Shown here piece after piece: positions 6,978 to 61,918 of a DNA stretch of 64,000 bases. Each line of letters begins with the position of its first letter. Position 1 is the stretch's first letter. Made by a program: the position numbers and the translations under genes. Location of the stretch: NCBI GenBank assembly GCA_031292145.1, contig JARLHR010000074.1:31376-95375 (forward strand), read 5' to 3'. The notes below the pieces were generated by a model, which made no database searches, was not told the DNA's origin, and saw only the letters and a program-made list of their open reading frames with translations. This stretch comes from Clostridium sp. Lineage in GTDB: Bacteria; Bacillota; Clostridia; Clostridiales; Clostridiaceae.

Positions 6978-6978
6978 T

Positions 6979-8220
6979 ATGAAAAAGTTATTAGCAAATA
7001 AATACAAAAAGATGCTTTTTGTTATGACTATTATTGGTCCAGGACTAATTACTGTAAATGCTGGTAATGATGCTGGCGGCATTACAACATATGCTTCAGT
7101 TGGTGCTTCATATGGATATAAAATGTTATGGGGATTACTTTTAATTACATTTAGCCTTGCAGTAATACAGGAAATGAATGCGAGAATGGCAGTAGTAACT
7201 GGCAAGGGATTGTCTGATTTGATTCGAGAAAAGTTTGGAGTTAAGCTTACTTTTTTTGCAATGACTATTCTTTTAATTGCAAATATGGGGGTTGTTTTTG
7301 GAGATTTTGCGGGTATTGCAGCAAGTTTAGAACTTTTTAATATAAGCAAGTTTATATCAATACCTATTGTTTCTATAGCAATTTGGTTTCTTGTTACTAA
7401 AGGATCTTATAAGAAGGTAGAAAATATTTTCTTATTATTTACATTTGTATTTTTTACTTATATTATTTCAGCATTTTTAAGTAAACCAGATTGGGGGAAT
7501 GTGTTTAAATCAATGGCTACGCCTACTATGGAATTAAATTCAGATTTTCTTCTTACATTCATAGGAATGATTGGAACAACAATTACTCCATACATGCAGT
7601 TTTATCTACAATCATCAATAGTAGATAAAAAACTAAGTATATCTGATTACAAATATGAAAAACTTGATGTTTATTTGGGTTCATTTTGGGGAAATGCAGT
7701 ATCATTTTTTATAATTGTTTGTACAGCCGCAACACTTTATAAAGCTGGTATAACTATAAATGCAGCAGAAGAAGCTGCAATGGCTTTAGAACCACTAGCT
7801 GGACGCTGGGCATTTATACTTTTTGGAGCTGGATTGTTTGGAGCATCAGTACTTGCCACAGCTGTTATTCCACTTTCAACTTCTTATGCAATATGTGAAG
7901 CCTTTGGATGGGAGAGTGGTGTTGACAATGACTATAAGGATGCACCAGCCTTCTTTGGAATATATACTGGTATAATTTTATTAGGAGCAGTATTCATACT
8001 TATACCAGGAATATCACTTATTCAAATTATACTTGTAACTCAAGAAATAGCTGGAATATTATCTCCTATTATACTAACCTTCATGATAATATTAATAAAT
8101 GACAAACGTATAATGGGCGAATATATTAATAACAAAACTCAAAATATTATATCTTGGGCGACAGTTATATTTATTATAATTTTATCTGTAATTTTGTTTA
8201 TATCACCGCTTATCACGTAA
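6979..8220 (+). CDS. NRAMP-related Mg2+ transporter (NMT type)
   Basis: A 413-residue membrane protein with about 11 helices and the NRAMP fold. The metal-site motif of TM1, DPGN in Mn/Fe NRAMPs, reads D31-A-G-G here (NAGNDAGG), and the TM6 MPH motif reads T203-P-Y (TTITPYMQFYL). The canonical motifs are kept in the second NRAMP of this window (11600-12907). Loss of the Met and the Asn, which favour transition metals, together with M-box control matches the NRAMP-related Mg2+ transporters described from Clostridium acetobutylicum. It is one base after the MgtE-like gene and is probably translationally coupled to it. A repeat element begins on the base after the stop codon. Family is sure; Mg2+ as substrate is well supported by context. 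Confidence 0.88.
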   Translation: MKKLLANKYKKMLFVMTIIGPGLITVNAGNDAGGITTYASVGASYGYKMLWGLLLITFSLAVIQEMNARMAVVTGKGLSDLIREKFGVKLTFFAMTILLIANMGVVFGDFAGIAASLELFNISKFISIPIVSIAIWFLVTKGSYKKVENIFLLFTFVFFTYIISAFLSKPDWGNVFKSMATPTMELNSDFLLTFIGMIGTTITPYMQFYLQSSIVDKKLSISDYKYEKLDVYLGSFWGNAVSFFIIVCTAATLYKAGITINAAEEAAMALEPLAGRWAFILFGAGLFGASVLATAVIPLSTSYAICEAFGWESGVDNDYKDAPAFFGIYTGIILLGAVFILIPGISLIQIILVTQEIAGILSPIILTFMIILINDKRIMGEYINNKTQNIISWATVIFIIILSVILFISPLIT

Positions 8221-8282
8221 TTAGGCACAATCAAAAAATAGTAGACCAGAATGCTGGGCTACTATTTTTTTGATTGTGCCTT
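8221..8282. repeat. Dispersed inverted-repeat element, short form (copy 2)
   Basis: A 62-bp near-perfect hairpin: TTAGGCACAATCAAAAAATA, then GTAG, a short loop region, CTACTATTTTTTTGATTGTG and CCTTA. It starts directly after the stop codon of the NRAMP gene. The long stem with a T-run could also act as its transcription terminator in both directions. Confidence 0.85.
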
Positions 8283-8329
8283 AATATATAAATGAAGTGC
8301 TTTTAATCGTTATTTATGAAAAAGTAAGC

Positions 8330-8727
8330 ATAATAGAAAAAATAAATCCACAGGCGAAAATAATTGGAGAAGTTTTAAATAAAATAGATTTTAGTGAAAT
8401 AATAAATTTTGAGAAAAATATAAGAATATGTGAAGAAAATGAAATCATAGTTGATGAAAAATAATCATATAATAATCTAACTAATGTAAGTAATAGGAAT
8501 CAAATAACCAAAAATTATTTGATTCAGAAGAAAAAGAAAAGCATCTTCACAATTATAAGTTAACTGGCAAAAATAATTTAAGAAAGTGCATTCAATTTCA
8601 TTATGTATCTGGAAAACTTGCAATAAGTGATATGAGTTAATAAAAAATGGTATATATGCGAATTAATGAAAGTAACATAAATAAAAATAAGTTAAATTAC
8701 TTTATAAATAATCTAATGGGTATTTAG
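8330..8727 (+). pseudogene. Decayed COG0523 (CobW-like) GTPase, C-terminal remnant
   Basis: Stretches match the C-terminal half of the intact GTPase at 56001-56981, for example translated INPQAKIIGEVLNKIDFSEI here against INPYAKIIRETLNEIDFSEV there, then NYKLTGKNNLRKCIQFHYVS, which joins two regions separated in the intact gene. In-frame stops (TAA near 8462 and TAA near 8639) and internal deletions break the frame, and the 5' half with the GTP-binding motifs is missing. The remnant begins just after repeat copy 2 and ends before the GTPase-permease fusion gene, exactly where the intact GTPase sits in the other cassette. It is therefore a dead paralogue, not a new gene. Confidence 0.85.
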
Positions 8728-8736
8728 GGGTGAAAT

Positions 8737-10350
8737 ATGAGTATAAAAGTAGAAATAGTTATAGGATTTCTTGGATTTGGGAAAACAAGGTTTATAAATT
8801 CTATGTTACAAAGTGAAGAATTACAAAATGAAATTATTGTAGTTATTCAAGATGAGTTTGGAAAATGTGAAATAATTGATAACTTAAATAATCAAAAACA
8901 ACAAAGCCAAATTATAGTAATAAAAAATGAGGAGGATAAAGAAATCAATGCAGATTATATAAAAAAAATTATAAAGGAATATATTCCGGACAGAATTTTT
9001 ATTGAAGTAAATGGTATGAAAAATTCTACTAATATTATTAATATATTTAATGAGAAAGGTATAAAAAAATTATGTGAAATTGATGATATAATAAGTGTAA
9101 TTGATGTAATAAAATTCCCCATGTATTTTAGAAATATGAAAAGTATGGTTAGCACTCATATTTTCAATAGTGAAACCATAATATTAAATAATGTAGATGC
9201 ATTAAAAAAGAAGGGATTTTCAAGGTTACAAAAAGAAATTAAAAGTATTAATGAAACAGCTAATATACTTAAACACGTTAATATAATAAATAAACGAGAA
9301 CCAAATGAAGATGAGTATGTTGAGATAAAGAAGAATAATTATTTTGTTTTAAAAACTTTGCTCAATTTTACTTTTTTTATATTTATATTTATCTACCTAA
9401 TTACAATGACAACATTGGATAATAACGTGTATAGTGAATTCTTAGATAAATTCAAAAAATTTTATAATGTATTTATAAGTATATTGATTCAAGGTTTTCC
9501 TTTCATTCTTATTGGAAGTTTTGTATCAGCAATAATTCAAATTTGTATATCAAAAGATAAGCTCATCAAAATATTTCCAAAGAATATTTTTTTATCATGT
9601 ATAGTTGCAGCCTTTGCAGGATTATTATTTCCTATATGTGATTGTGGGACTATCCCCGTTGTTAGAGGACTGATGAAAAAGAAAGTACCTATGGCTGCTG
9701 GAGTTACATTTATGTTAGCAGCGCCAATAGTAAATCCAATAGCGATTGTCTCAACTATATATGCTTTTCAAGGAATGAAATCTGTAGTAATTTATAGGGT
9801 AATTGCAGGTATAATAATTGCAATTTCAGTAGGACTTATTATGCAATTTTGTACAAAGAAAGATGAAGATATTTTAAACAGTAGTGAAGAAATAGGCGAA
9901 TGTGATTGTGGATTTTGCAATGATGACTATGGGGATAACAAAAGTAAATTAAAAAAGGTAAGAGCTGTATTTGTTCATGCAGGAGATGAATTTTTTAATG
10001 TAGGAAAATTTATGATTCTAGGAACATTTTTATCTAGCATTTTTCAAAATGTAGTATCATTAAATAATAATATGTATATTTCAAATGATAATAGGATTTC
10101 ACTTTTGATTATGATAGCATTGGCTTTTTTACTTTCAGTATGTTCAACATCAGATGCTTTTATTGCTAAGAGTTTTTTAAAGCAATTTTCAATAAATTCT
10201 GTAATGGGATTTCTAGTAGTTGGACCTATGTTAGATGTTAAGAATACAATTATGCTTTTTGGCAGTTTTAAAAAGAAATTTGTATTAAAGTTAATACTTA
10301 TTATTCTTGTAGTATCGTTTGGAGTTTTGATTAATTGTAAATTATCGTAG
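8737..10350 (+). CDS. COG0523-like GTPase domain fused to YcgR-type permease (UPF0718/DUF318), copy 1
   Basis: A 537-residue fusion. Residues 1-195 resemble a G3E/COG0523 GTPase: P-loop GFLGFGKT, strand VVIQDEFGKCEI and the IFIEVNGM segment. The CxCC metal motif of metallochaperones is absent. From about residue 200 come roughly eight membrane helices of the UPF0718 permease family, with PICDCGTIPVVRGLMKKKVP and LAAPIVNPIAIVSTIYAF. A Cys-rich loop (ECDCGFCNDDYGD) lies between helices. SD AGGGGTG precedes the ATG. It is closely similar to 57009-58622. A metal-export or metal-uptake role coupled to GTP hydrolysis is plausible but unproved. Confidence 0.82.
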   Translation: MSIKVEIVIGFLGFGKTRFINSMLQSEELQNEIIVVIQDEFGKCEIIDNLNNQKQQSQIIVIKNEEDKEINADYIKKIIKEYIPDRIFIEVNGMKNSTNIINIFNEKGIKKLCEIDDIISVIDVIKFPMYFRNMKSMVSTHIFNSETIILNNVDALKKKGFSRLQKEIKSINETANILKHVNIINKREPNEDEYVEIKKNNYFVLKTLLNFTFFIFIFIYLITMTTLDNNVYSEFLDKFKKFYNVFISILIQGFPFILIGSFVSAIIQICISKDKLIKIFPKNIFLSCIVAAFAGLLFPICDCGTIPVVRGLMKKKVPMAAGVTFMLAAPIVNPIAIVSTIYAFQGMKSVVIYRVIAGIIIAISVGLIMQFCTKKDEDILNSSEEIGECDCGFCNDDYGDNKSKLKKVRAVFVHAGDEFFNVGKFMILGTFLSSIFQNVVSLNNNMYISNDNRISLLIMIALAFLLSVCSTSDAFIAKSFLKQFSINSVMGFLVVGPMLDVKNTIMLFGSFKKKFVLKLILIILVVSFGVLINCKLS

Positions 10351-10436
10351 GAATACTCAAAAATAACAGAATAATATGGTTTGTATACCATTTAGTTATT
10401 TTTCAATACTTTAAGATTGATTGAAAGAGGTAGTAT

Positions 10437-11294
10437 ATGAAAAAATTAAATTTAGACACTATTGTAAAGATATTAATATTACTTGGCTTTTCATTATTTT
10501 ATTTTAGAATTATTATAAATAATGAAATATTGATGTATGTACATCCAAGAATTGTTCCATTTGTAGTTTTAGGAATGATAGCTATGTTTGTAATTGCATT
10601 ATTTTTAATTAAAGATAGCTTTCATAATAAAAAGAAAAAATTTAAGTTTAAGAACTATGTAATTTTTATAATTCCACTAATTATGATATTTTTTATGCAA
10701 AGTACTAATGCAAATTCTGCAATCAAAACTAGTGATATAAACACTAGTTCCAATATTACATCAAATAATAATTTGGGTAATAGTTCAAATGATACTTCAA
10801 ATAATACTTCTAATCAAGGTAACAATATAAACAATAAATTAACTTCTGCTAACTCCACATTCGAGATATATGGTGGAAAAACTGAAAGTGATGGGCAGGG
10901 TACAGTTGACAAAAAAGAACTAGATATAAAAAATAATGTTATAGAGGTAGATGCTAAAAATTTTGTAGTTTCCCTTGATGAGATTCTAGGAAACCCAGAT
11001 AAATATGACGGAAAAGAAATAGAGATAACAGGATTTGTATATAAAGATAAAGACTTAAAAGAAAATGAATATATAATAGGAAGATTTATGATGATCTGCT
11101 GTGCAGCTGATATGCAGATTGCTGGAATCAGATGCGATAGTAATAATTTAGAATCTTATGATAGTGACACTTGGATAAAAATAAAAGGAAAAATTAAGAA
11201 GGATACTTTTGAAGGTGAGGTAGATCCTCTTATAGTAGTTGAACATGTAGAAAAAGATCTTAATCCAGATACTTCATATGTATATCCTTTTTAA
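10437..11294 (+). CDS. TIGR03943/YcgQ-family membrane protein, copy 1
   Basis: A 285-residue protein with two or three N-terminal helices (residues 10-90) starting MKKLNLDTIVKILILLGFSL, and a soluble C-terminal domain (about 165-285) with ITGFVYKDKDLKENEYIIGR and the conserved Cys pair FMMICCAADMQIAGI. The family is usually encoded next to UPF0718 permeases (YcgR/YcgQ in Bacillus), as here 86 bp downstream. Between the parts lies an Asn/Ser/Thr-rich linker (residues about 100-150) that is longer than in the paralogue at 58699-59439. The function is unknown; the Cys pair and the context suggest metal handling. Confidence 0.82.
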   Translation: MKKLNLDTIVKILILLGFSLFYFRIIINNEILMYVHPRIVPFVVLGMIAMFVIALFLIKDSFHNKKKKFKFKNYVIFIIPLIMIFFMQSTNANSAIKTSDINTSSNITSNNNLGNSSNDTSNNTSNQGNNINNKLTSANSTFEIYGGKTESDGQGTVDKKELDIKNNVIEVDAKNFVVSLDEILGNPDKYDGKEIEITGFVYKDKDLKENEYIIGRFMMICCAADMQIAGIRCDSNNLESYDSDTWIKIKGKIKKDTFEGEVDPLIVVEHVEKDLNPDTSYVYPF

Positions 11295-11445
11295 AAAGTA
11301 TTAAAAAAATGATAAATGTCAATTAATGCTATGTGCTTTTGTAAGTAAATTTAATAGTCTAGAGTTTATCTCAAAATGATGGTAATTCAAATATAAAAGG
11401 GATGTATATCCAGACTAATTAGGATATGCTTCTCTTTTAATAATG

Positions 11446-11510
11446 TTAAGGCACAATCAGAAAAATAATAGGCCAGTATTCTTGTCTATTATTTTCCTTA
11501 ATGTGTGCCC
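11446..11510. repeat. Dispersed inverted-repeat element, short form (copy 3)
   Basis: About 65 bp: TTAAGGCACAATCAGAAAAA, then TAATAGGCC, a short loop, GTCTATTATTTTCCTTAATG and TGTGCC. It lies in the 305-bp convergent gap between the TIGR03943 gene and mntH, where it could terminate both transcripts. The rest of the gap holds nothing recognisable. Confidence 0.8.
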
Positions 11511-11599
11511 AAAATAAACATCAAAAGAGTCTTTATTTCTAAAATTAATAAATTTAAATATAAAATGGTACGTATTTATGTCTTTAAGATAATATAATA

Positions 11600-12907
11600 T
11601 TAAGCATTACCTGTAAAGGTTAGAAATAATAGCACTGCATTCAGTACAATTATGCAAGTAGCTATTAGAACACCTAAGAAACGTACAGATGTCTTATTAA
11701 CTAAAATACCCATTAAATCTTTACGTTTAGCTATAATTAACATTTGTATTATTGGAAATGGTAAAATAAAACTAAGTGCAACTTGGCTTAAAACAAGAGC
11801 ATTCATTGGATTAATTCCAAGTGTTATTATAATCAAAGCTGGCAGCATGGTTATAAGTCTTCTGACATTTACAGGTATGCTTAAATTAACAAACCCCTTC
11901 ATTATTGTTTGTCCAGCCAGTGTTCCAACAGCAGAGGATGATAGTCCTGATGCAAGTAATGCGATTCCAAAGGCACCACTTGATAAAGAACCCAATAAAG
12001 GTTGTAGCGATTGATGAGCTTGTTCCATTGTATCTACTAACATTCCATTTCTATAAAAAACTGCTGCTGATACTACAACCATTGCAGCATTAACAACAAA
12101 TGCAATATTCATAGCTATACCAATATCTATTTTTTCCATTCTTAAATGTCTTAGTTTCCCTTCATCTGACGAATCAGTAATTCTGTGCTGAACTAAATGT
12201 GAGTGTAAATATATTACATGAGGCATAACTGTTGCACCAAGCATTCCAACAGCAATTAATACAGCTTCACCATTAGGCAATATTGGAATTATTGTATGAA
12301 TGCCTACTTGAGTCCAATTAGGCTTAGCAAGAAATAATTCTATTGTATATGCAATACTTATTACAGCAACAAGTATTGATATTATGATCTCAATAGATTT
12401 CTGACCATATTTCTCCATATAACAAATTATAAATGTTATAAGTCCAGTAAGAAGTCCTGCGTATATCATAGGTATATTAAACAATAAATATAATCCTAAT
12501 GTTCCACCGAGAAACTCTGCTAAATCTGTTGCCATAGCTCCTATTTCTGCAATAATCCAAAATATCCAGTTTACGGACTTAGGGAATACTTTAGCACACA
12601 TTTCAGGGAGGTTATGACCTGTAGCTATCCCGAGTTTGGCAGACATAGTCTGTAAGAATATAGCCATTAAGTTACTCCACAAAATTACCCAAATGAGTAT
12701 ATAGTTGAATTGTGATCCTGCACTGATATTAGTAGCAAAATTTCCTGGATCAATATATGCTACGCTAACAACAAAAGCCGGTCCTAAAAACTTTAATAAT
12801 TCTTTTAACTTACTTGATTTTCTTATTATATTATTTGTTTCTCTTTTCAAAGTAAAAAGTTTTTCTGAAGATACATCAATATCTCCTACGGTTAGTTCTT
12901 TTTTCAT
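11600..12907 (-). CDS. mntH: Mn2+ transporter MntH (NRAMP family)
   Basis: The 435-residue protein has canonical NRAMP motifs: TM1 YIDPGNFATNI (Asp53, Asn56) and TM6 GATVMPHVIYLHSHLVQHR, plus EIGAMATDLAEFLGG. These residues bind Mn2+ or Fe2+ in the family, and transport is proton-coupled at the cytoplasmic membrane. I chose the ATG at 12907 (MKKELTVGD) because the SD AAGGA lies 11 bases upstream; the ATG codons at 12919 and 12916 overlap or touch it. The gene is monocistronic and convergent with the TIGR03943 gene. It contrasts with the Mg2+-type NRAMP at 6979-8220. Confidence 0.93.
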   Translation of the reverse strand: MKKELTVGDIDVSSEKLFTLKRETNNIIRKSSKLKELLKFLGPAFVVSVAYIDPGNFATNISAGSQFNYILIWVILWSNLMAIFLQTMSAKLGIATGHNLPEMCAKVFPKSVNWIFWIIAEIGAMATDLAEFLGGTLGLYLLFNIPMIYAGLLTGLITFIICYMEKYGQKSIEIIISILVAVISIAYTIELFLAKPNWTQVGIHTIIPILPNGEAVLIAVGMLGATVMPHVIYLHSHLVQHRITDSSDEGKLRHLRMEKIDIGIAMNIAFVVNAAMVVVSAAVFYRNGMLVDTMEQAHQSLQPLLGSLSSGAFGIALLASGLSSSAVGTLAGQTIMKGFVNLSIPVNVRRLITMLPALIIITLGINPMNALVLSQVALSFILPFPIIQMLIIAKRKDLMGILVNKTSVRFLGVLIATCIIVLNAVLLFLTFTGNA

Positions 12908-12975
12908 AAAATACATCATCCTTATTAATTAAATTTTTCGTATACTTAAAAAATAGTTAGTAATAGTTAATAGTG

Positions 12976-12989
12976 TTAGTCTAAACTAA
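12976..12989. promoter_or_regulatory. Candidate MntR/DtxR-type operator upstream of mntH
   Basis: TTAGTCTAAACTAA is a 14-bp imperfect palindrome (6 of 7 pairs) about 70 bp upstream of the mntH start, in the 310-bp divergent region shared with the hemerythrin gene. Position and TTAG...CTAA ends fit a metal-dependent DtxR-family repressor site, but the match is short. Confidence 0.3.
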
Positions 12990-13218
12990 TTTATTTTTCT
13001 AATATAAACTATGTAGTAGTTAAAAGAAATGTTACAATAAAGTAATTATTTTGTTTGCTTAAGCATATAATGTCATTAACAGAAAATTTGGCAAAGAATT
13101 TACATTAATATTTGTAAGCAATAAACTATATAATCTATGGTTTACAAATAACTTATTGCTATGGATTGGAAAAGAAAGCGATTTTTATAAAATTAATATG
13201 AAAAGGTAGTGATTAGTA

Positions 13219-13881
13219 GTGAGTACAAATACTGAACAAAATAATGAGAAAAAAACAGAGGTTTCGCCTACTGAAGATCTAATGCGAGAGCATGGAGTTT
13301 TACATCGTATACTATTGATTTATAATGATTCATTAAAACATTTGAAAAGACAAAAAGTAAATAATCAGATAAATATTTATTTTATTATTTATAATATTGC
13401 TTCTATAGCACATGAATTTATTGAAGGTTACCATCAAAAACTAGAGGAACAATATGTTTTTCCAAGATTTTTACAAAATGTTCAGTATATTAAACTTATA
13501 AACACACTTCTTAATCAACATAATGCAGCTTATAACTTAACAGAAAATATACTTTATTTTTCATCAATAAAAAATATAAAGTATTTTGAAAATAGTCTAC
13601 AATTAATACCATTATTAGAATCATATATAAGCATGTATGATCCTCATTCTGCCCGTGAAGATACAGTTATTTTTCCAGCTTTTCATGAATTAGTAACAGA
13701 AGAAAAATTTAAAGAATTAGGAGAGCGCTTTGAGGAAATAGAAGAACAAAAATTTGGTAAGGACGGATTTAAACATATAGTTAATGAAGTTAGTCAAATT
13801 GAGAAAATATTAGGTATTTATAATTTGGCTCAATTTACACCAATAGAAATAAGCCTTACAGATAAACCACATGAATTCTAA
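13219..13881 (+). CDS. Hemerythrin-like (HHE) cation-binding protein
   Basis: The 220-residue protein starts at GTG behind AAAGGT. Its all-helical sequence shows the HHE pattern: MREHGVLHRILL (helix 1), HEFIEGYHQKLEEQYVFPRF (helix 2), NQHNAAYNLTE (helix 3) and DPHSAREDTVIFPAFHEL (helix 4). These His, Glu and Asp residues fit a di-iron centre of the hemerythrin family, used for oxygen or NO sensing and scavenging or for iron-centre repair. It is cytoplasmic with no signal peptide. It is transcribed divergently from mntH with a shared 310-bp region. The exact physiological role is unknown. Confidence 0.88.
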   Translation: MSTNTEQNNEKKTEVSPTEDLMREHGVLHRILLIYNDSLKHLKRQKVNNQINIYFIIYNIASIAHEFIEGYHQKLEEQYVFPRFLQNVQYIKLINTLLNQHNAAYNLTENILYFSSIKNIKYFENSLQLIPLLESYISMYDPHSAREDTVIFPAFHELVTEEKFKELGERFEEIEEQKFGKDGFKHIVNEVSQIEKILGIYNLAQFTPIEISLTDKPHEF

Positions 13882-53584: not shown

Positions 53585-55405
53585 ATGAAACAAATATTAA
53601 AAAATGTAATACGAAAAAATTGGTTATTAATATTTATAGTAGTAATGTTGCAGGCTAAATCAGAATTACTATTATCTATGCTTAGAACACCAGATTCATC
53701 AAGTATAAACTTAGGAAGTGCTTATTTTGATCCACCAGTACTTTGGGTACACGTAGCAATAATAGTGTTAGTATGTAGTCCAATATTGCTTTTTAAAGAA
53801 AAAGGAAGGCTTAGAGCTGCGTTAATAATAGATATTTTAGTAACAATTCTTTTTGTTACAGATATCTGGTATTATCGTGCAAATGGAACATTTTTATCAA
53901 TAAGATACTTAATGCATAGTGAGATATTTAATCCAGAAGGTAAAAATTTATTTAATTTTAGAATGGTAGATTTAGTTTTTTTTATTGATTTTATTATACT
54001 TTTCTTAATTAATAAATTTATTAAATTTAAAGAAGTAAATGAAAGTCAAGCATATTTTAGAGTAGTAAAGACTATGTATGTATTTGTGGCGAGTGCGCTT
54101 GTTATATGGTATGGATATAATACTGTAGATGTTAAACAAATGGAGCCAGGAAAAAATATATTTAGATTATCCTGGGCGCCATTTCAAACATTTGGGGATA
54201 TGAGTCCACTAGGTTATCATGGTTTTGATATTGAATTTTATAAAAATAAGAATAAAACTTTAACAGATGAAGATAAAAATGAAATAGAAAATTGGTTTAA
54301 TGATAATAAAGAGGATTTGCCTGATAACAGTTATAAAGGTATGTTTAAAGGGAAAAATGTAGTTGCCCTGCAAATAGAATCTTTAGAAAACTGTGTTATT
54401 AATCAAAAAGTTTATGGGCAGGAAATAACGCCAAATTTAAATAGGTTATTATCAAATAGTTTGTATTTTAATAATATACGTGAACAAAATAATTCTGGAA
54501 CAAGTTCAGATTGTGACTTGATGGTTAATACTTCAGTACTTCCTATACGAGAAGGCACTACAGTATATTCCTATCCTTGGAGTCAATATAATACGCTTCA
54601 AGATATATTGAAAGGTAAGGGATATACTACAATGTCTACTCATGCAGAACCGCCTGGAAACTGGAACTGGACAGAAATGCATAAAAGCTACGGAGCGGAT
54701 CAAATATTAGATGTAGGAAAATTTAATCAAGATGAAATTATAGGTTTAGGTCTTTCTGATGAATCATACTTAAAGCAAGTAGCTCAAAAGTTAAAAGATG
54801 AAAAACAACCTTATTATGCATTTATGACTACTTTAACTAGTCATGGGCCTTTTGAGATACCGGAAGATAAAAAATATTTAAACTTGCCAAAAGAACTCGA
54901 TGATAATATGCTTGGAAAATATTTTCAGGCTGTAAGATATACAGATGAAGCTATTGGAAAGTTTATAGCAGAATTAGATAATGAAGGTTTATTAGATAAT
55001 ACAGTGGTTATGATTTATGGTGACCATTGTGGGGTTCACAAATTTTATGAACAGGATATAGAAAATGCGCCTTTAGATGGAGAATGGTGGAAGGATAATC
55101 AAAGAAAAATTCCTTATATAGTTTATTCAAAGAATTTAAAACCAGAGGTTATATCAACAACAGGCGGACAAACAGACTTTAAGCCGACGATATTATACTT
55201 ACTTGGAGCAGATAGAAGTGAATTTGAGAACAATTCAATGGGAAGAGTATTAGTAAATACGAATAGAGATGCTACAATTTTAAATGAAGGTCAAATTGTT
55301 GGAAATCCAAAGGATGAAAAAGAAGTACAGCATCTTAAAGATGAATTTAAAGTTGCAGAAACTATTATTGAAAAAAATTATTTCAAAGATAATAAAAATA
55401 ATTAA
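53585..55405 (+). CDS. LtaS-family lipoteichoic acid synthase-like sulfatase-fold protein
   Basis: The ATG at 53585 is preferred since GGAG lies 7-8 bases upstream; ATG 53579 touches it. About 606 residues: five N-terminal helices (1-190), then an extracellular sulfatase-fold domain. Key stretches are NVVALQIESLENCVINQKVY (metal Glu), REQNNSGTSSDCDLM (catalytic Thr in GTSSD), TTLTSHGPFEIP and TVVMIYGDHCGVHKF (metal Asp-His). LtaS enzymes polymerise glycerol phosphate from phosphatidylglycerol onto a glycolipid outside the membrane; a glycolipid-type glycosyltransferase is at 2755. A phosphoglycerol-transferase role is also possible. Confidence 0.9.
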   Translation: MKQILKNVIRKNWLLIFIVVMLQAKSELLLSMLRTPDSSSINLGSAYFDPPVLWVHVAIIVLVCSPILLFKEKGRLRAALIIDILVTILFVTDIWYYRANGTFLSIRYLMHSEIFNPEGKNLFNFRMVDLVFFIDFIILFLINKFIKFKEVNESQAYFRVVKTMYVFVASALVIWYGYNTVDVKQMEPGKNIFRLSWAPFQTFGDMSPLGYHGFDIEFYKNKNKTLTDEDKNEIENWFNDNKEDLPDNSYKGMFKGKNVVALQIESLENCVINQKVYGQEITPNLNRLLSNSLYFNNIREQNNSGTSSDCDLMVNTSVLPIREGTTVYSYPWSQYNTLQDILKGKGYTTMSTHAEPPGNWNWTEMHKSYGADQILDVGKFNQDEIIGLGLSDESYLKQVAQKLKDEKQPYYAFMTTLTSHGPFEIPEDKKYLNLPKELDDNMLGKYFQAVRYTDEAIGKFIAELDNEGLLDNTVVMIYGDHCGVHKFYEQDIENAPLDGEWWKDNQRKIPYIVYSKNLKPEVISTTGGQTDFKPTILYLLGADRSEFENNSMGRVLVNTNRDATILNEGQIVGNPKDEKEVQHLKDEFKVAETIIEKNYFKDNKNN

Positions 55406-55492
55406 GAAACTTTAAAATACATAATTAATACTGATTTTGAGTGATTAATTTTAATAGCAGATTAGACTTTGGGTCAGGAGTAGTTATTTAAT

Positions 55493-55756
55493 TTGAGGAA
55501 GTTTTTTGTGAAAATCAGACAGAAAGAAGTGACAGGTTATTATCAAATTGATTGGAATGCGTTATCTGGAGATGCAGAAGGTGCACCTAAAAATGCAGAA
55601 CAATTAAAACAAGAAGTTATAAAAACTGTGGCAGGCAGACAAAAAGCAATAATATTAATGCATGATACTTATGGAAAAGAAGAAACTGCAAAACCTTTAC
55701 CGGGAATAATAGAGTATTTAAAGGGACAAGGATATGAATTTAAAATTATAAAATAA
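55493..55756 (+). pseudogene. Polysaccharide deacetylase C-terminal remnant
   Basis: A TTG-started frame of 87 codons reads YYQIDWNALSGDAEGAPKNA, then QKAIILMHDTYGKEETAKPL and GYEFKIIK, i.e. the last third of a NodB deacetylase with the LMHD motif but without the catalytic N-terminal motifs. No plausible ribosome site or signal sequence precedes it. It is probably a truncated gene. The complete 3' structure and terminator remain. Confidence 0.75.
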
Positions 55757-55764
55757 CTAAATAT

Positions 55765-55844
55765 GACTGTGCTAATTTTCAGTTAATATTTGAGTAGCTA
55801 TTTATGCTAACAATACCAACTGAAAATAGCGCAGTCTATTTTTA
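55765..55844 (+). terminator. Long terminator after the deacetylase remnant
   Basis: GACTGTGCTAATTTTCAGTT and AACTGAAAATAGCGCAGTC pair over about 19 bases (one bulge and one mismatch), enclosing a 34-base loop, then TATTTTTATT. It closes the LtaS region before the metal cassette. Confidence 0.8.
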
Positions 55845-56000
55845 TTCTTTAGAAATTTATAATGCAACTAAATATGGAATATATATTAAGAATTTATTAC
55901 AGGAATGGTATATGTGAGTATTATTCTTGTAATTTTATATACACATGGATATAATTTATTTAGCTAAAAATGCAAATTTATCGCAATAAGGAGAGATTAT

Positions 56001-56981
56001 ATGGAAACAAAGATTGATATAATATCTGGATTTTTGGGTGCAGGAAAAACTACTTTGATAAAAAAGTTAATTGATGATAAGCTTAAAGACGAAAAAATTG
56101 CAATTATAGAAAATGAATTTGGTGAAGTTTCAATTGACGGAGATATCTTAAAAGAGTTGAAGTTTAATATAAAAGAAATAAAATCGGGCTGCATATGTTG
56201 TAGTCTCACGGGTGATTTAAAAGATTCTATTAAAAGTATAATAGATTTATATTCTCCAGAAAGGATATTAATTGAACCTTCAGGAGTGGCAAAACTAAGT
56301 GATGTGATTAAAGTATGTGAAGATTTGTATGATGATTGTAGTATTAAAATTAATATGTTAGTTACAGTTTTAGATGTTTTTAATGCGAAAGTATATATTA
56401 AAAATTTTGGAGAATTTTATAAAGATCAAATTAAAAATGCAAAAACAATTATTTTAACTAGAATAGAAAATGTTTCTGAAGAAAAAATTAATGAAACAAT
56501 AGGCTTAATAGAAGAAATAAATCCATATGCAAAAATAATTAGAGAAACTTTAAATGAAATAGATTTTAGTGAAGTGATAAATCTTGAGAAAAATATAAGG
56601 ATAGATGAAAAAGAAAAGCAATTTAAAAATTATAAGTTAATTCGCAAAAATAATTTAAGAAATGCTACATATGTAAAGCAGCATAATCAAAACGCAGATA
56701 GTATGTTTAGTACTTGGTCATTAGAAACAAAAAAAGAATTTAATAAATATACATTAAAAGAGTTATTTGAGGAGATTGCAAAAAGCAAAGATTATGGATT
56801 TATATTAAGAGGTAAAGGCATAGTAAAATTAGATACAGGAAAATGCATTCAATTTCATTATGTACCTGGAAAATTTGCAATAAGTGATATAAACGAGCAA
56901 GAAATTAGTAAAATGTGCATTATTGGAAGTAATGTAAATAAAGATAAGTTAAATTATTTATTTAAAGGTGATTATAAATAA
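56001..56981 (+). CDS. COG0523 (CobW-like G3E) metallochaperone GTPase
   Basis: A 326-residue cytoplasmic GTPase: P-loop IISGFLGAGKTTLIKKL, IIENEFGEVSIDGDIL, the metal-binding CxCC motif IKSGCICCSLTGDL, LIEPSGVAKLSDV, and a C-terminal CobW_C domain (FNKYTLKELFEEIAKSKDYG, KCIQFHYVPGKFAISDI). COG0523 proteins insert or deliver metals such as Zn, Co or Ni. It is the first gene of a cassette with the GTPase-permease fusion 27 bp downstream. A decayed paralogue lies at 8330-8727. The metal is unknown; the YcgR/YcgQ-type neighbours hint at Zn or a related metal. Confidence 0.92.
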   Translation: METKIDIISGFLGAGKTTLIKKLIDDKLKDEKIAIIENEFGEVSIDGDILKELKFNIKEIKSGCICCSLTGDLKDSIKSIIDLYSPERILIEPSGVAKLSDVIKVCEDLYDDCSIKINMLVTVLDVFNAKVYIKNFGEFYKDQIKNAKTIILTRIENVSEEKINETIGLIEEINPYAKIIRETLNEIDFSEVINLEKNIRIDEKEKQFKNYKLIRKNNLRNATYVKQHNQNADSMFSTWSLETKKEFNKYTLKELFEEIAKSKDYGFILRGKGIVKLDTGKCIQFHYVPGKFAISDINEQEISKMCIIGSNVNKDKLNYLFKGDYK

Positions 56982-57008
56982 TTTGAATCGATTTTTTTGA
57001 GGTGAAAT

Positions 57009-58622
57009 ATGAATACAAAAGTAGAAATAGTGATTGGATTTCTTGGCTCTGGAAAAACAAGTTTTATAAATTCTAAGTTACAAGAGAAAGAATTACAAGA
57101 CGAAACTATTGTTGTTATACAAGATGAATTTGGAAACTGTGAAATAAAAGATGACTTGAATAATAAAAATCAAATTATAGTAATGAAAAATGATGAAGAT
57201 AAAGAAATCAATGCAGATTATATAAAGAAAATTATAAGTAAATATACTCCAAATAGAATTTTTATTGAAACAAATGGAATGAAAGATTCTGCTAATATAA
57301 TTAGTATATTTAATAATAAAGGGATAAAAAAAATATGTAAAATTGATGATATAATAAATTTAATTGATGCAATAAGCTTTAATATGTATTTTAGAAATAT
57401 GAGAAGTATAATTAGCACTCATATTTTTAATGGTGAAACGATAATCTTAAACAATACAAATCAATTAGAGAAAAAAGAATTTTCAAGAATACAAAAAGAA
57501 ATTGAAAATATTAATGAAACAGCTAAAATTCTGAAACATGTCGCCATGATAAATAAGGAAAAATCAAAGGAAGAAGAATATGTAGAGATAAAAAGACATG
57601 TTTTTTCGTTGTTTAATACTTTTTTTTATTTAGGTCTTGTAATATTTTTACTTGTTTTTATAATTACACTGACAACATTAAATATTAAAATATCCAGTGT
57701 ATATTTAGATGGATTTAAAAAGTTTTATGATGTGTTTATAAGCATATTAATTGAAGGTTTTCCTTTCATTTTTATTGGGAGTTTTGTATCTGCAATGATA
57801 CAAATTTGTGTATCCAGGGACACGTTTATTAAAATATTTTCAAAGAATATTTTTTTATCTTGTATAATTGCAGCTTTTGCAGGTTTATTATTTCCAATAT
57901 GTGATTGTGGGACAATCCCTATAGTTAAAGGACTTATGAAGAAGAAAATTCCTATAGCAGCAGGAATTACTTTTATGTTAGCAGCACCAATAGTAAATCC
58001 AATAACGATAATTTCAACTATATATGCATTTCCTGGAATGGAATCTGTAGTAATTTATAGGGTAAGTACTGGAATTATAATCGCTATTTTAGTAGGTTTA
58101 TTTATGCAATTTTGCACAAAAAAAGATGAAGAGATTTTGAAAAATAATGCTGATACAGTTGAATGTGACTGTGGTTTTTGTAATGATAACTATGATTATT
58201 CAAAAAGTAAATTACAAAAAATTAAAGCAATATTTATTCATGCAGGAGATGAATTTTTTAATATGGGCAAATTTATGATTATTGGAACTTTTTTATCTAG
58301 CATTTTTCAAAATATAGTATCAATAAATAATAGTATGTATATTCCAAACGATGACAGAAGTTCTCTTATAGTAATGATTTTATTATCTTTTTTACTTTCA
58401 GTTTGTTCAACTTCAGATGCATTTGTTGCTAAGGGTTTTTTAAAAGTATTTTCAATAAACTCTATAATGGGATTTTTAGTAGTTGGACCAATGTTAGATG
58501 TTAAAAATACAATTATGCTCTTTGGAAGCTTTAAAAAGAAATTTGTATTAAAGTTAATATTTATTATTATTGTGGTGTCGTTTGGTGTTTTGATTAATTG
58601 TAAATTAGCTTATCAATATTGA
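57009..58622 (+). CDS. COG0523-like GTPase domain fused to YcgR-type permease, copy 2
   Basis: The 537-residue protein mirrors 8737-10350 over its entire length. Residues 1-195: P-loop GFLGSGKTS (Ser where copy 1 has Phe), VVIQDEFGNCEI, IFIETNGM, and no CxCC motif. Residues 200-537: about eight helices of the UPF0718 permease family with PICDCGTIPIVKGLMKKKIP and LAAPIVNPITIISTIYAF, and the Cys loop ECDCGFCNDNYDYS. The domain order GTPase then permease in one chain is unusual: family members are usually separate. It lies between a CxCC GTPase and a TIGR03943 protein and may move metal under GTPase control. Confidence 0.83.
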   Translation: MNTKVEIVIGFLGSGKTSFINSKLQEKELQDETIVVIQDEFGNCEIKDDLNNKNQIIVMKNDEDKEINADYIKKIISKYTPNRIFIETNGMKDSANIISIFNNKGIKKICKIDDIINLIDAISFNMYFRNMRSIISTHIFNGETIILNNTNQLEKKEFSRIQKEIENINETAKILKHVAMINKEKSKEEEYVEIKRHVFSLFNTFFYLGLVIFLLVFIITLTTLNIKISSVYLDGFKKFYDVFISILIEGFPFIFIGSFVSAMIQICVSRDTFIKIFSKNIFLSCIIAAFAGLLFPICDCGTIPIVKGLMKKKIPIAAGITFMLAAPIVNPITIISTIYAFPGMESVVIYRVSTGIIIAILVGLFMQFCTKKDEEILKNNADTVECDCGFCNDNYDYSKSKLQKIKAIFIHAGDEFFNMGKFMIIGTFLSSIFQNIVSINNSMYIPNDDRSSLIVMILLSFLLSVCSTSDAFVAKGFLKVFSINSIMGFLVVGPMLDVKNTIMLFGSFKKKFVLKLIFIIIVVSFGVLINCKLAYQY

Positions 58623-58698
58623 AAAGTAACTTAATAGATAGTCGTATATTTTATATGAATTATCCGTATATTAACAAATTAAATAAAAGAGGTAGGAT

Positions 58699-59439
58699 AT
58701 GAAAAAATTAAATTCGGATATAATTATTAAAATATTAATATTATTGTGTTTTGCGGTATTTTACTTTAGAATTATCAGGAATAATGAAATAATAATGTAT
58801 GTACATCCGAGAATTATTCCATTTGCAATTTTTGGAATGATATCAATGTTTATGGTTGCAATATTTCTAATTACAAATAGTTATCACATCAAAAAAAAGA
58901 AAATAAGATTAAACAATTATGTGATTTTTATAATTCCATTAATAATGATATTTTGCATGCAAAGTACTAGCGCAAATTCTTCAATAAAAACTGATGATAT
59001 AAATACAAATGTAACTTATGATAGTTATAAACTTCATTCATCTCAAGAAGATGATGATGATAATCTATCTAGAAAAAATAATGTTATAGAAGTGGATGCC
59101 AACAATTTTCTACGTTCCATTGATGAGCTTCAGGGAAACGCAGATAAATATGAGGGACAGGAAATAGAAATAACAGGGTTTGTTTATAAAGATAAAAAGC
59201 TAAAAGATAATGAGTTTACAATAGGTCGATTTGTAATGGCGTGCTGTGCAGCTGATTTACAAATTGAAGGAATTAAATGTGATAGTAATAATCTAGAAAC
59301 TTATGATAATGATACATGGGTAATAATAAAGGGGAAAATTAAGACTGAAACTGTTAACTATGCAGTAAAGCCAGTTATAGTAGTGGAACATATAGAAAAA
59401 GATCCTAACCCTAAAACAGAATATTTATATCCATTTTAA
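58699..59439 (+). CDS. TIGR03943/YcgQ-family membrane protein, copy 2
   Basis: A 246-residue protein like 10437-11294: N-terminal helices (MKKLNSDIIIKILILLCFAV; VIFIIPLIMIFCMQSTSANS), a short acidic linker (SQEDDDDNLSRKNN) in place of the long Asn/Ser-rich linker of copy 1, and the C-terminal domain with ITGFVYKDKKLKDNEFTIGR and VMACCAADLQIEGI. SD AAAGAGGTAGG precedes the ATG. It closes the cassette, and a terminator follows 8 bp later. The function is unknown; association with the permease is the main clue. Confidence 0.83.
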   Translation: MKKLNSDIIIKILILLCFAVFYFRIIRNNEIIMYVHPRIIPFAIFGMISMFMVAIFLITNSYHIKKKKIRLNNYVIFIIPLIMIFCMQSTSANSSIKTDDINTNVTYDSYKLHSSQEDDDDNLSRKNNVIEVDANNFLRSIDELQGNADKYEGQEIEITGFVYKDKKLKDNEFTIGRFVMACCAADLQIEGIKCDSNNLETYDNDTWVIIKGKIKTETVNYAVKPVIVVEHIEKDPNPKTEYLYPF

Positions 59440-59446
59440 AAAGAAA

Positions 59447-59498
59447 AATAATACGATATATTAGAGTTTCAACCCAATATATTGTATTATTTTTTTTA
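59447..59498 (+). terminator. Terminator of the GTPase/permease cassette
   Basis: AATAATACGATATATT and AATATATTGTATTATT form a 16-bp stem (one G-U pair) over 13 bases, followed by eight T residues. Confidence 0.87.
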
Positions 59499-59542
59499 GA
59501 GAAACCATTTTAATAATACATATTTAGAAATGCATATGAAAA

Positions 59543-59555
59543 GATAATGATTATC
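59543..59555. promoter_or_regulatory. Fur-box-like site upstream of feoA
   Basis: GATAATGATTATC is a perfect 6-1-6 inverted repeat and continues as AATT; this matches the core of the Fur box (GATAATGATAATC...). It lies about 100 bp before the feoA start, in the only promoter region of the feo operon. Fur with Fe2+ would repress the operon. Confidence 0.7.
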
Positions 59556-59648
59556 AATTACTATTGAAATAAGAATTCAATAGGTGTAATATATATATAG
59601 GAGTTAAACACAACAAAATTACTCTAAATGTTAGAGAAGGTGATTATA

Positions 59649-59873
59649 ATGAATTTACTTGATGGAATAATAGGAAATGAATATAAAGTGATAAATATAA
59701 AAGTTGAGGAAAATATAAGTAGACGGCTTCAAGCTCTTGGCTTAACCATGGGAACGAAAGTAAAAATATTAAATAACAAGAAAAGTGGATCAGTTATTTT
59801 TAAAGTAAGAGGAACAAGACTTGCTATTGGAAAGAAGATAGCAGAAGGAATTTTAGTGTGTATGGAGGAATAG
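59649..59873 (+). CDS. feoA: Ferrous iron transport protein FeoA
   Basis: The start is ATG 59649, after GAGAAGGTGA; the ATG at 59628 has its nearest GGAG 26 bases away. The 74-residue SH3-like protein (MNLLDGIIGNEYKVINIKVE, RRLQALGLTMGTKVKILNNK, VIFKVRGTRLAIGKKIAEGI) is typical of FeoA, which helps FeoB in Fe2+ uptake. Its stop is 2 bp before the likely feoB start, and the feoB ribosome site lies inside the feoA end. Confidence 0.93.
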   Translation: MNLLDGIIGNEYKVINIKVEENISRRLQALGLTMGTKVKILNNKKSGSVIFKVRGTRLAIGKKIAEGILVCMEE

Positions 59874-59875
59874 AT

Positions 59876-61918
59876 GTGGAGAAATCATTAAATGTTGCTT
59901 TTATTGGAAATCCAAACTGTGGAAAGACAACTTTATTTAATGCTTATACAGGGGCAAAATTAAAAGTGGCAAATTGGCCAGGTGTAAGTGTAGAAAAAAA
60001 GGAAGGCAATTATAATTATCATGATAATAATTTTAAATTAGTAGATTTACCTGGAATCTACAGCTTGACTTCTTATTCAATGGAAGAAAAGGTATCTAGG
60101 CAGTATATATTAGAAGATGAGGTAGACGTAGTTGTTGATATTGCAGATGCATCTTGTTTAGAACGTAATTTATATTTAACACTTCAATTAATAGAATTGG
60201 GAAAACCTGTTGTACTTGCATTAAATATGATGGACATAGTAGAGCAGAGAGGTATGGAGATTGATCTTCATAGACTTCCAGAAATGCTTGGAATTCCAGT
60301 AGTACCTGTGTCAGCAAGAAAGAAAAAGGGTCTGGATATATTAATGCATGCGGTTGTTCATCATAAAGGTAAAAGGTTGGACAACCTAGAGCATGAACAT
60401 AAGAATAACAAGAAAAGCTGTCATAAACATGATCATCATAAAGATTGTGTAGTTGTTTATAGTGATGAAATTGAAGAAAAGATTGACCTTATATCTGAAA
60501 GGTTAGAAGATACATATAGAGAAATAAATAATGTTAGATGGCATGCAATTAAATTATTAGAAATGGATGTTGAAATACAAGAAAAATATTCAATTGATTT
60601 ATCAGATATAATAGATAAAAATTATGAAGCGGATATTACTAATGAAAAATATGATTTTATAGAAGAAATAATAGCTGAAGTTTTAGTAAACAAAGATGAA
60701 AAAGCAGAAGTAACAGATAAAATTGACAATGTATTAACTAATAGATATTTTGGAATACCTGTTTTTCTAATGATTATGGCATTAGTATTTTTCTTAACAT
60801 TTATCATTGGAGATTTCTTAAAGGGTGGATTTCAAATTGGGTTAGATGCATTCTCAGAAGTGGTATCAACATTATTAAAAAACCTTAATGTTAATTCTAC
60901 AATAACTTCGTTAGTCGTAGATGGTATCATTGCTGGAGTTGGAGGTATATTAACATTTTTGCCTAATATCTTTATTCTTTTCTTAGCTTTAGGTTTTTTA
61001 GAAGATAGCGGATACATGGCAAGAGTTGCCTATGTGATGGATGGACTTATGGCTAAAATGGGGCTGTCAGGCAGGGCATTTATACCAATGATATTAGGAT
61101 ATGGATGTACAGTTCCAGCAGTAATGGCAGCACGTACACTTGAGGATGAAAAAGATAGATTGAAGACAATACTTGTAACACCATTTATGTCATGCAGCGC
61201 AAGACTTCCTATTTATGTTTTATTTTCAGAAGTGTTCTTCCCACATTATTCAATGCTAGTTGCTTTTTCAATGTATGTAATTGGATTAGTTGTAGCAATA
61301 ATAGTGGCTATTATTGCAGGGAAGATAGGATATAAAAAAGAAATTAATACATTATTAATAGAGCTTCCAGAATATAAAGCACCTAATGCAAGAACAATAG
61401 CAATTTATGTGTGGGAAAAAGTAAAAGATTATTTATCAAAAGCAGGAACAACAATTTTTGTAGCTTCAATTTTTATGTGGTTTATATTAAATTTCAATTC
61501 TACTGGAATGGTAGATGATATATCTAAAAGTTTTGGAGCAAGTATAGGAAAGGTATTAGTCCCAGTTTTAAAACCTGGCGGACTTGGAATGTGGCAGATA
61601 GTTGTTACGCTTATATCTGGAATAGCTGCAAAAGAAGTAGTTGTATCAAGCTTTACTGTATTATTCAATATTAATAATATTACATCAGCAGCTGGAATGG
61701 CAGCAATGGCTGGGAATCTTGGAGCATACGGATTTGGACCACTTAATGCATACTCACTTATGATATTTTGTCTTTTATATACACCTTGTATGGCAACAAT
61801 TGCAACAGTTAAGAAGGAAACAAATTCATGGAAATTCACAACATTTATGATAGTATTTCAATTATTCATAGCGTGGGGAATGTCAACATTAATATTTCAA
61901 ATTGGATCATTGTTTTAA
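59876..61918 (+). CDS. feoB: Ferrous iron transporter FeoB
   Basis: A 680-residue transporter. I take GTG 59876 (VEKSLNVAFIGNPNCGKTTL), 7 bases after GGAGG; GTG 59858 lies inside feoA. The N-terminal GTPase has G1 GNPNCGKTT, G3 VDLPGIYS and G4 LNMMD. A linker at about residues 172-187 is rich in His and Cys (HEHKNNKKSCHKHDHHKDC), which may bind metal. The membrane domain has the two Gate motifs (GYGCTVPAVMAARTLEDEKD; LYTPCMATIATVKKE). It imports Fe2+ in the anaerobic cell. It follows feoA and is probably Fur-controlled. Confidence 0.95.
   Translation: MEKSLNVAFIGNPNCGKTTLFNAYTGAKLKVANWPGVSVEKKEGNYNYHDNNFKLVDLPGIYSLTSYSMEEKVSRQYILEDEVDVVVDIADASCLERNLYLTLQLIELGKPVVLALNMMDIVEQRGMEIDLHRLPEMLGIPVVPVSARKKKGLDILMHAVVHHKGKRLDNLEHEHKNNKKSCHKHDHHKDCVVVYSDEIEEKIDLISERLEDTYREINNVRWHAIKLLEMDVEIQEKYSIDLSDIIDKNYEADITNEKYDFIEEIIAEVLVNKDEKAEVTDKIDNVLTNRYFGIPVFLMIMALVFFLTFIIGDFLKGGFQIGLDAFSEVVSTLLKNLNVNSTITSLVVDGIIAGVGGILTFLPNIFILFLALGFLEDSGYMARVAYVMDGLMAKMGLSGRAFIPMILGYGCTVPAVMAARTLEDEKDRLKTILVTPFMSCSARLPIYVLFSEVFFPHYSMLVAFSMYVIGLVVAIIVAIIAGKIGYKKEINTLLIELPEYKAPNARTIAIYVWEKVKDYLSKAGTTIFVASIFMWFILNFNSTGMVDDISKSFGASIGKVLVPVLKPGGLGMWQIVVTLISGIAAKEVVVSSFTVLFNINNITSAAGMAAMAGNLGAYGFGPLNAYSLMIFCLLYTPCMATIATVKKETNSWKFTTFMIVFQLFIAWGMSTLIFQIGSLF

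Follow-up and report, generated by a model that had tools for sequence, protein, structure and literature searches.

How a permease might work when it carries a GTPase in the same chain, and whether such a fusion belongs to a wider system, are questions raised by a three-gene cassette in a 64,000-nucleotide stretch of Clostridium sp. DNA (contig JARLHR010000074.1; hereafter the window). The cassette encodes a CxCC-bearing GTPase of the COG0523/CobW type (GL), a single protein in which a short G3E GTPase domain (GS) precedes an ArsP_1/UPF0718 permease, and a TIGR03943/DUF1980 protein (Table 1). We find that this cassette is real, conserved in the genus and zinc-leaning, and we offer a hypothesis for its mechanism.

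Table 1 Coordinates of the cassette, its upstream elements and a second copy in the window
Feature	Coordinates	Strand	Basis
GL, CxCC COG0523/CobW-type GTPase with CobW_C, putative zinc metallochaperone	56001..56981	+	326 aa; Pfam; motif
GS, the short G3E GTPase domain at fusion residues 1-195	57009..57593	+	P-loop 10-17, E87-x-N89-G90, without CxCC
ArsP_1/UPF0718 permease part of the fusion	57594..58622	+	Pfam; extra hydrophobic segment 206-224
TIGR03943/DUF1980 protein	58699..59439	+	246 aa; profile scores
Intrinsic terminator, AT-rich hairpin and U run	59440..59502	+	Folding
Dyad-symmetric element TTACAGGAAT-N16-ATTCTTGTAA, putative operator	55897..55932	.	Upstream-region comparison
Promoter-like site, -35 TTGTAA, 17-base spacer, -10 TATAAT	55927..55955	+	Consensus scan
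GS-permease fusion of the second copy, with 74% identity to the first	8737..10350	+	Sequence comparison
Second TIGR03943/DUF1980 protein	10437..11294	+	Domain/profile match
GL (CxCC-type GTPase) remnant upstream of the second cassette	8312..8700	+	Remnant search

An earlier note, made from the sequence alone, had described three genes with short gaps closed by one terminator, and this description proved exact: 27 bases separate GL from the fusion and 76 bases separate the fusion from the TIGR03943 gene, and the closing hairpin with its U run folds at -19.4 kcal/mol (z -8.42). A consensus terminator scanner that demands three G-C pairs reported none around the cassette, and Rfam gave zero matches over positions 55000-60000. 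GL is a COG0523 protein by its P-loop, CxCC (residues 64-67) and CobW_C, with Pfam matches to cobW (6.5e-39) and CobW_C (2.3e-8). The fusion is one open reading frame (57009-58622, 537 aa) that matches cobW over residues 5-175 (6.3e-19) and ArsP_1 over residues 236-525 (3.6e-57), with no CobW_C match in the Pfam scan; its permease part scores 194.2 bits against PF03773 (cut-off 32.3) and thus belongs to that family. The third protein matches DUF1980_C (2.1e-33) and TIGR03943 (176.9 bits, cut-off 88.8). Four solved structures match the fusion at E values up to 1, the credible ones being two YjiA sequences that cover the GTPase part.

The fused domain is GTPase-like, keeps its P-loop and lacks the metal motif, as the earlier note had said. 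Residues 1-195 alone match cobW in Pfam (1.7e-20), and in a comparison of 47 GS with 34 GL sequences the P-loop G-x4-G-K-[ST], E40, G42, the Walker B glutamate E87 and N89 are kept in all 47 GS sequences, G90 and N169 are retained in 45 of 47, and CxCC occurs in 0 of 47, its columns consisting entirely of gaps. The E-x-N-G of GS corresponds to EPSG/EPTG in GL. At the position of GL E37 the commonest GS residue is Q (36/47), and at that of GL E42 an E is found in 16/47. The fourth motif of GL is unusual, [ST]RxQ-like, and GS mostly has NN at the same place; because this motif is altered, the guanine specificity of both GL and GS appears uncertain. In a quick G-domain tree, built with no bootstrap and with several long branches flagged, the 47 GS rows split from 46 CxCC rows with a Shimodaira-Hasegawa-like approximate likelihood-ratio support of 99.3. 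All COG0523 proteins are stated to have CxCC (PMC2770081, PMC7895991), and by this definition GS, a distinct group, is a relative rather than a member of COG0523. GS would seem to be brought to the membrane in two ways, by fusion and by an anchor-like C-terminal stretch: at two loci of one family (L129 and L131, family f87) an unfused GS-like protein is encoded downstream of the TIGR03943 gene, with GL between them at L131, and its C-terminal hydrophobic stretch looks like a membrane anchor.

The fusion recurs well beyond the window. Counting from open reading frames at fetched loci, we found full-length fusions in 11 of 58 other relative genomes (10 of 35 from the same genus and G037 from another family) and in at least 4 of 397 other genomes of the phylum (G424, G403, G364 and G450), a sample in which at most three candidates were scored per genome. 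Fusion carriers span six families in total and include single-contig genomes (G008, G424 and G364), and the fusion is therefore not an assembly artefact. The earlier note had held that its proposal would fall if residues 1-195 were unlike a GTPase or if the fusion occurred only here with no conserved neighbours; because the domain is GTPase-like and the fusion recurs with conserved neighbours, neither is the case. A further 16 genomes of the genus encode GS and the permease as two adjacent genes; GL comes first in all of these (15 complete, 1 cut at a contig end) and TIGR03943 follows in 13. In all, 26 of the 35 same-genus genomes pair GS with a permease, either in one chain or as adjoining genes. 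Among the remaining nine, seven gave no match, some of them being incomplete, G035 has other COG0523 proteins only, and at the G024 locus the permease and TIGR03943 are present but GS is not. In the permease tree, two changes are needed to account for the fused state, most simply a single gain plus a loss in L119, a locus with neither GS nor GL. A search of plasmids matched 75 records, none reaching 80% query coverage and, among the matches listed, with the permease part only. Two permeases of other build were seen: at L067 (5560-6474) the permease of a split cassette lies in two open reading frames, apparently through a stop codon or frameshift, and at L126 (3019-4821) a 600-aa ArsP_1 permease has about 300 additional N-terminal residues with no GS match over 25 bits and is possibly another fusion of a different kind.

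The cassette has a consistent order of GL, GS, permease and TIGR03943. Loci were chosen by their match to the fusion, and the counts for the 73 permease genes tallied (L146 repeats L079) describe those loci rather than genomes generally. A TIGR03943 gene follows the permease in 23/24 fused, 18/22 split-GS and 27/27 GS-less rows (68/73 overall). GL lies on the same strand within 2.5 kb in 13/24 fused, 20/22 split-GS and 3/27 GS-less rows, and one of these last three, L131, is the locus with GS further downstream. In the 71-row tree set, GL adjoins 34 of 45 GS-bearing versus 2 of 26 GS-less permeases, with two GLs cut at contig ends counted as present; the Fisher p of 1.6e-8 for this association is inflated by relatedness, and an independent-pairs test, with two pairs on starred branches, is powerless. 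The CxCC GTPase is a plausible metal partner. Several GL proteins carry His-rich, partly Cys-rich inserts after the G domain (L116, 3965-4975; L118, 5541-6251; L131, 6951-7976).

Genes for zinc handling adjoin several fused cassettes. With home-made profiles built from two to three sequences each, ZnuA or ABC-3 matches were found for 12 of 24 fused rows (9 different loci) and 8 of 27 GS-less rows; Pfam confirmed those at L043, L052, L060 and L131, and two L045 rows depend on one ZnuA match without Pfam confirmation. FUR-family genes lie close to ZnuA/ABC-3 matches at L115, L116, L118 and L119. At L115 and L116 the FUR-family gene stands between ABC-3 and GL, and the L118 cluster reads GL, fusion, TIGR03943, ZnuA, ATPase, ABC-3, FUR. 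These ZnuABC-type and Fur-family neighbours point to zinc, as does the binding of B. anthracis Zur upstream of an ArsP_1 gene, BAS1632, that is adjacent by number to yciC (PMC6336718). CxCC COG0523 proteins have been linked to zinc limitation (PMC2770081), and the metal site of CobW is GTP-dependent and its relatives prefer zinc (PMC7895991). The YciC protein of B. subtilis has been catalogued as associated with the membrane (PMC6120080).

The window genome holds several further copies. Two fusions lie in the window, a third and a truncated fourth (358 aa) lie on contig C112, and a split GS/permease version lies on C199, which was ruled out as a fusion by reading the DNA, where stop codons part GS and permease. 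All five ArsP_1 genes of this genome (one truncated) and all four TIGR03943 genes sit in such cassettes. The truncated fusion (L043, 11449-13154) retains about half of the permease and abuts a TetR-type regulator gene; GL adjoins it, its TIGR03943 partner is absent, and a znuABC-like operon is divergent from the CxCC GTPase and truncated fusion (L043, 6576-11421). Around the second window fusion (5727-13881) are genes for a PRC/MgtE_N/CBS protein and a hemerythrin-domain protein and two Nramp genes. Upstream of the first cassette, an 87-aa open reading frame with no Pfam match (55493-55756) is probably the remnant of a deacetylase C terminus, because the gene preceding GL in a sister genome (locus L045, 3907-4854) encodes a full polysaccharide deacetylase. 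Directly downstream are feoA and feoB (59540-61918; FeoB at 59858-61918), and GATAATGATTATC upstream of feoA resembles a Fur box. At L117 (8018-9724), CbiM lies beside the cassette together with a small open reading frame with a lipoprotein-like start and a His-Asp motif.

Upstream of GL, the dyad listed in Table 1 is present too before the same cassette in related Clostridium among the upstream regions compared. Its right half contains the -35 TTGTAA of a promoter-like site that has 10/12 consensus matches and is retained among the compared regions; this site is weak by itself, the scan having returned a total of 52 sites against 39.6 expected. Allowing up to three mismatches, the dyad occurs at two sites in the whole genome (reversed-pattern control, 0), and a shorter pattern gave one window site and 0 in 100 shuffles. 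The second genomic copy lies at L043, between the divergent znuABC-like operon and GL with the truncated fusion. The dyad can form an RNA hairpin, yet its position is upstream of the promoter-like site. As a regulon marker it was rejected, since in 28 genomes, with up to three mismatches allowed, a looser pattern hit 89 sites and its reversed control 69. The looser pattern is meaningful at 0-1 mismatch only, where there are at least six sites and all those listed lie upstream of cassettes; several two-mismatch sites fall away from cassettes. The best Fur-box match upstream of 40 cassettes has 2 mismatches of 14 and is unconvincing.

Building on what was observed (gene set and order, fusion, nucleotide-binding residues, absence of CxCC, and neighbours), we infer topology, direction, metal, nucleotide use and docking as follows. 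Across 18 fusions the permease residues C298, C300, C386, C388, C391, C466, D470 and D497 are invariant. In the TIGR03943 protein, three hydrophobic segments precede a domain with conserved R177, C182-C183 and D186, and because the loop between its second and third segments is lysine-rich, the Cys-Cys domain is predicted to lie outside; in S. aureus, a DUF1980 protein has been catalogued as a lipoprotein (PMC5020093). We propose that the cassette forms a membrane complex for zinc or a divalent metal resembling it, with import as the likeliest direction, a tentative reading to which we give slightly less than an even chance. The TIGR03943 protein would capture the ion at the Cys-Cys site of its external domain, and the permease would conduct it inwards along the conserved Cys and Asp residues. 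GS, on the permease N terminus at the inner face, would by its nucleotide state open the permease or admit a partner; GL, its metal site formed upon GTP binding as for CobW, would then dock and remove the ion. The best reading of GS is thus as a membrane-tethered, metal-blind GTPase that may gate the permease or dock the CxCC chaperone. The predicted outside capture domain and the uptake-type neighbours favour import, which appears about twice as probable as efflux. Possible but unlikely is a more specific form of the proposal: a GTP-coupled metal transporter of a second type, alongside FeoB, in which a G3E (SIMIBI-class) GTPase whose metal site has been lost sits in or beside a zinc permease, and GS and GL would form a GTP-dependent heterodimer at the channel mouth, passing zinc from permease to chaperone and bypassing the free pool, much as the GTPases of the signal recognition particle and its receptor pair.

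Several findings weigh against this proposal, along with those that feed the alternatives taken up after them. Structure prediction from a six-row alignment reached a mean predicted local distance difference test score of 36.4. The distribution of GS is patchy beyond the genus: a GS-only profile run on 149 phylum genomes at E 1e-25 matched 10, with fused GS in G424 only and the remaining matches in frames of 303-412 aa. No ZnuA/ABC-3 or FUR match was found for any of the 22 split-GS rows within the fetched stretch. No convincing Zur box stands upstream of 40 cassettes, the best match having 6 mismatches of 20. For the earlier note, co-occurrence of the fusion with both partner genes in many genomes would support a system; TIGR03943 agrees with this, the CxCC GTPase only in part: of the 23 fusions in the permease tree, 10 have no GL next to them, so that GL is not an obligatory neighbour, and GL remnants were found in 5 of 11 tested upstream regions of fused-only loci, including window 8312-8700. 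Genomes with GL-less copies (G027, G034, G008, G005 and G023), and also G000, each hold a GL-type match elsewhere, with CxCC seen at the loci fetched, those of G027, G008, G005, G023 and G000 (the C. puniceum locus L040 lies outside this set), and GL may act in trans. Across eight chosen fusion pairs, five of them GL-less, the ratio of non-synonymous to synonymous substitution rates is 0.06-0.44 for GS and 0.10-0.45 for the permease. GS is under purifying selection in all eight, and because this selection persists in GL-less copies, GS seemingly has a job independent of a GL in the same operon.

Among the alternatives, we regard it as unlikely that the cassette exports a metal or organometal, the permease being an ArsP/SO_0444-type effluxer loaded from inside by the GTPases. 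The closest named permease families are effluxers, and B. anthracis Zur binds upstream of the ArsP_1 gene BAS1632, numbered adjacent to the yciC gene BAS1633, at Zur boxes read by the authors as positive regulation (PMC6336718); activation by Zur would fit zinc excess. However, the scores for the SO_0444 and SaoE effluxers are far under their cut-offs, the metal genes among the picked neighbours are all of uptake type (ZnuA, ABC-3, Nramp, CbiM and Feo), the zinc-limitation link of CxCC proteins (PMC2770081) points the other way, and no P-type ATPase or cation diffusion facilitator exporter appeared among the hand-picked neighbours scanned by Pfam, many of which are unrelated and which make up a minority of the flanking open reading frames. 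Rather improbable is that another divalent metal (Mn, Co, Ni or Fe) is handled in some or all lineages, with zinc as one case. The ZnuA/ABC-3 families include manganese transporters; the second window cassette is flanked by Nramp genes (6979-8220, + and 11600-12919, -) and could concern manganese; the L117 cassette adjoins a CbiM cobalt/nickel-type gene, a possible link to metal uptake of the energy-coupling factor type; and feoAB lie downstream of the window cassette. Against this stand the FUR-family genes near ZnuA/ABC-3 at L115, L116, L118 and L119 and the His-rich inserts in GL of L116, L118 and L131, both of which leave other metals possible. Of similarly low probability is that GS is a pseudo-enzyme with weak or no nucleotide binding that acts solely as a scaffold or as a platform on which the CxCC GTPase docks: the 47 GS sequences do not retain the guanine motif [NST]KxD, the CxCC loop is absent and the switch region is variable, but the P-loop and Walker B glutamate persist in 47/47, including fusions without a neighbouring GL. 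That the fusion is a chance joining of neighbours through stop-codon loss, without meaning for a system, is most improbable and largely rejected by distribution, for although split GS and permease genes adjoin, making a read-through join easy, and at L044, L068 and L080 share a reading frame across stop codons, the fusion spans six families, takes two changes to explain on the permease tree and evolves under purifying selection, even if a single clade of fused rows is still compatible with the data (approximately unbiased test, p 0.083).

The earlier note had seen here its best candidate for an undescribed system. This stands for GS and the assembled set, which look undescribed; it does not stand for the permease-TIGR03943 pair, known as ScfAB or YcgRQ (PMC5584981), or for an ArsP_1 operon beside yciC, reported to be a Zur target (PMC6336718). 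What is apparently new is the GS group and the assembled system, the component families being already known. No description of the fusion or of a CxCC-less, permease-bound GTPase was found in the literature searched, whose poor coverage of subscription journals makes this weak evidence of novelty. On the question of how COG0523 GTPases receive their metal, a permease with a metal-blind sister GTPase beside a chaperone would, if our proposal is true, offer a testable answer, namely metal hand-over at the membrane. The natural series of split, fused, membrane-anchored and GL-less forms makes the proposal open to genetic tests.

Several known systems share parts with the cassette. GL has the CobW domain, CxCC and CobW_C of COG0523 proteins (CobW, YciC, ZagA and YjiA), and GS shares the CobW-type domain and P-loop with them but has neither CxCC nor CobW_C and groups separately; Rv0106 is a homologue described as lacking GTPase motifs and one cysteine (PMC2770081). 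The CobW-related selenoprotein profile NF041053 (195 aa) is the top NCBIfam match for GS alone, at 49.8 bits over profile positions 3-177 of 195, yet this score and the 45.3 bits for the whole fusion fall far short of the cut-off of 180. The permease half matches the SO_0444 Cu/Zn efflux profile NF033936 (84 bits, cut-off 300) and the SaoE efflux profile NF040736 (66.4 bits, cut-off 325), both too weakly for membership, and profile lengths of 351-352 leave no space for a fused GTPase. In B. anthracis, BAS1632 resembles the cassette in pairing, by gene number, an ArsP_1 permease with the CxCC GTPase YciC (BAS1633) in a Zur-bound region, and differs in that neither GS nor a fusion is mentioned in the available part of that study (PMC6336718). 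FeoB likewise joins a GTPase and a transport domain in one chain and would work similarly if our proposal is right, but its GTPase is of the TRAFAC class rather than G3E/SIMIBI, and the FeoB_N and Gate domains present in the neighbouring FeoB are not matched by the fusion in Pfam. In ScfAB, YcgR-YcgQ and SMU.746-747 an ArsP_1 permease gene is followed by a TIGR03943 gene, as in 68 of 73 cases here; B. subtilis is among the genomes matching both families. The likeness is by family and not by alignment, and the excerpts available mention no GS for those pairs. Their function is described as undefined in work on S. pyogenes (PMC5584981), and as the pair is important for streptococcal fitness in tissue (PMC5584981), the cassette gives a concrete hypothesis for what ScfAB and YcgRQ may do.

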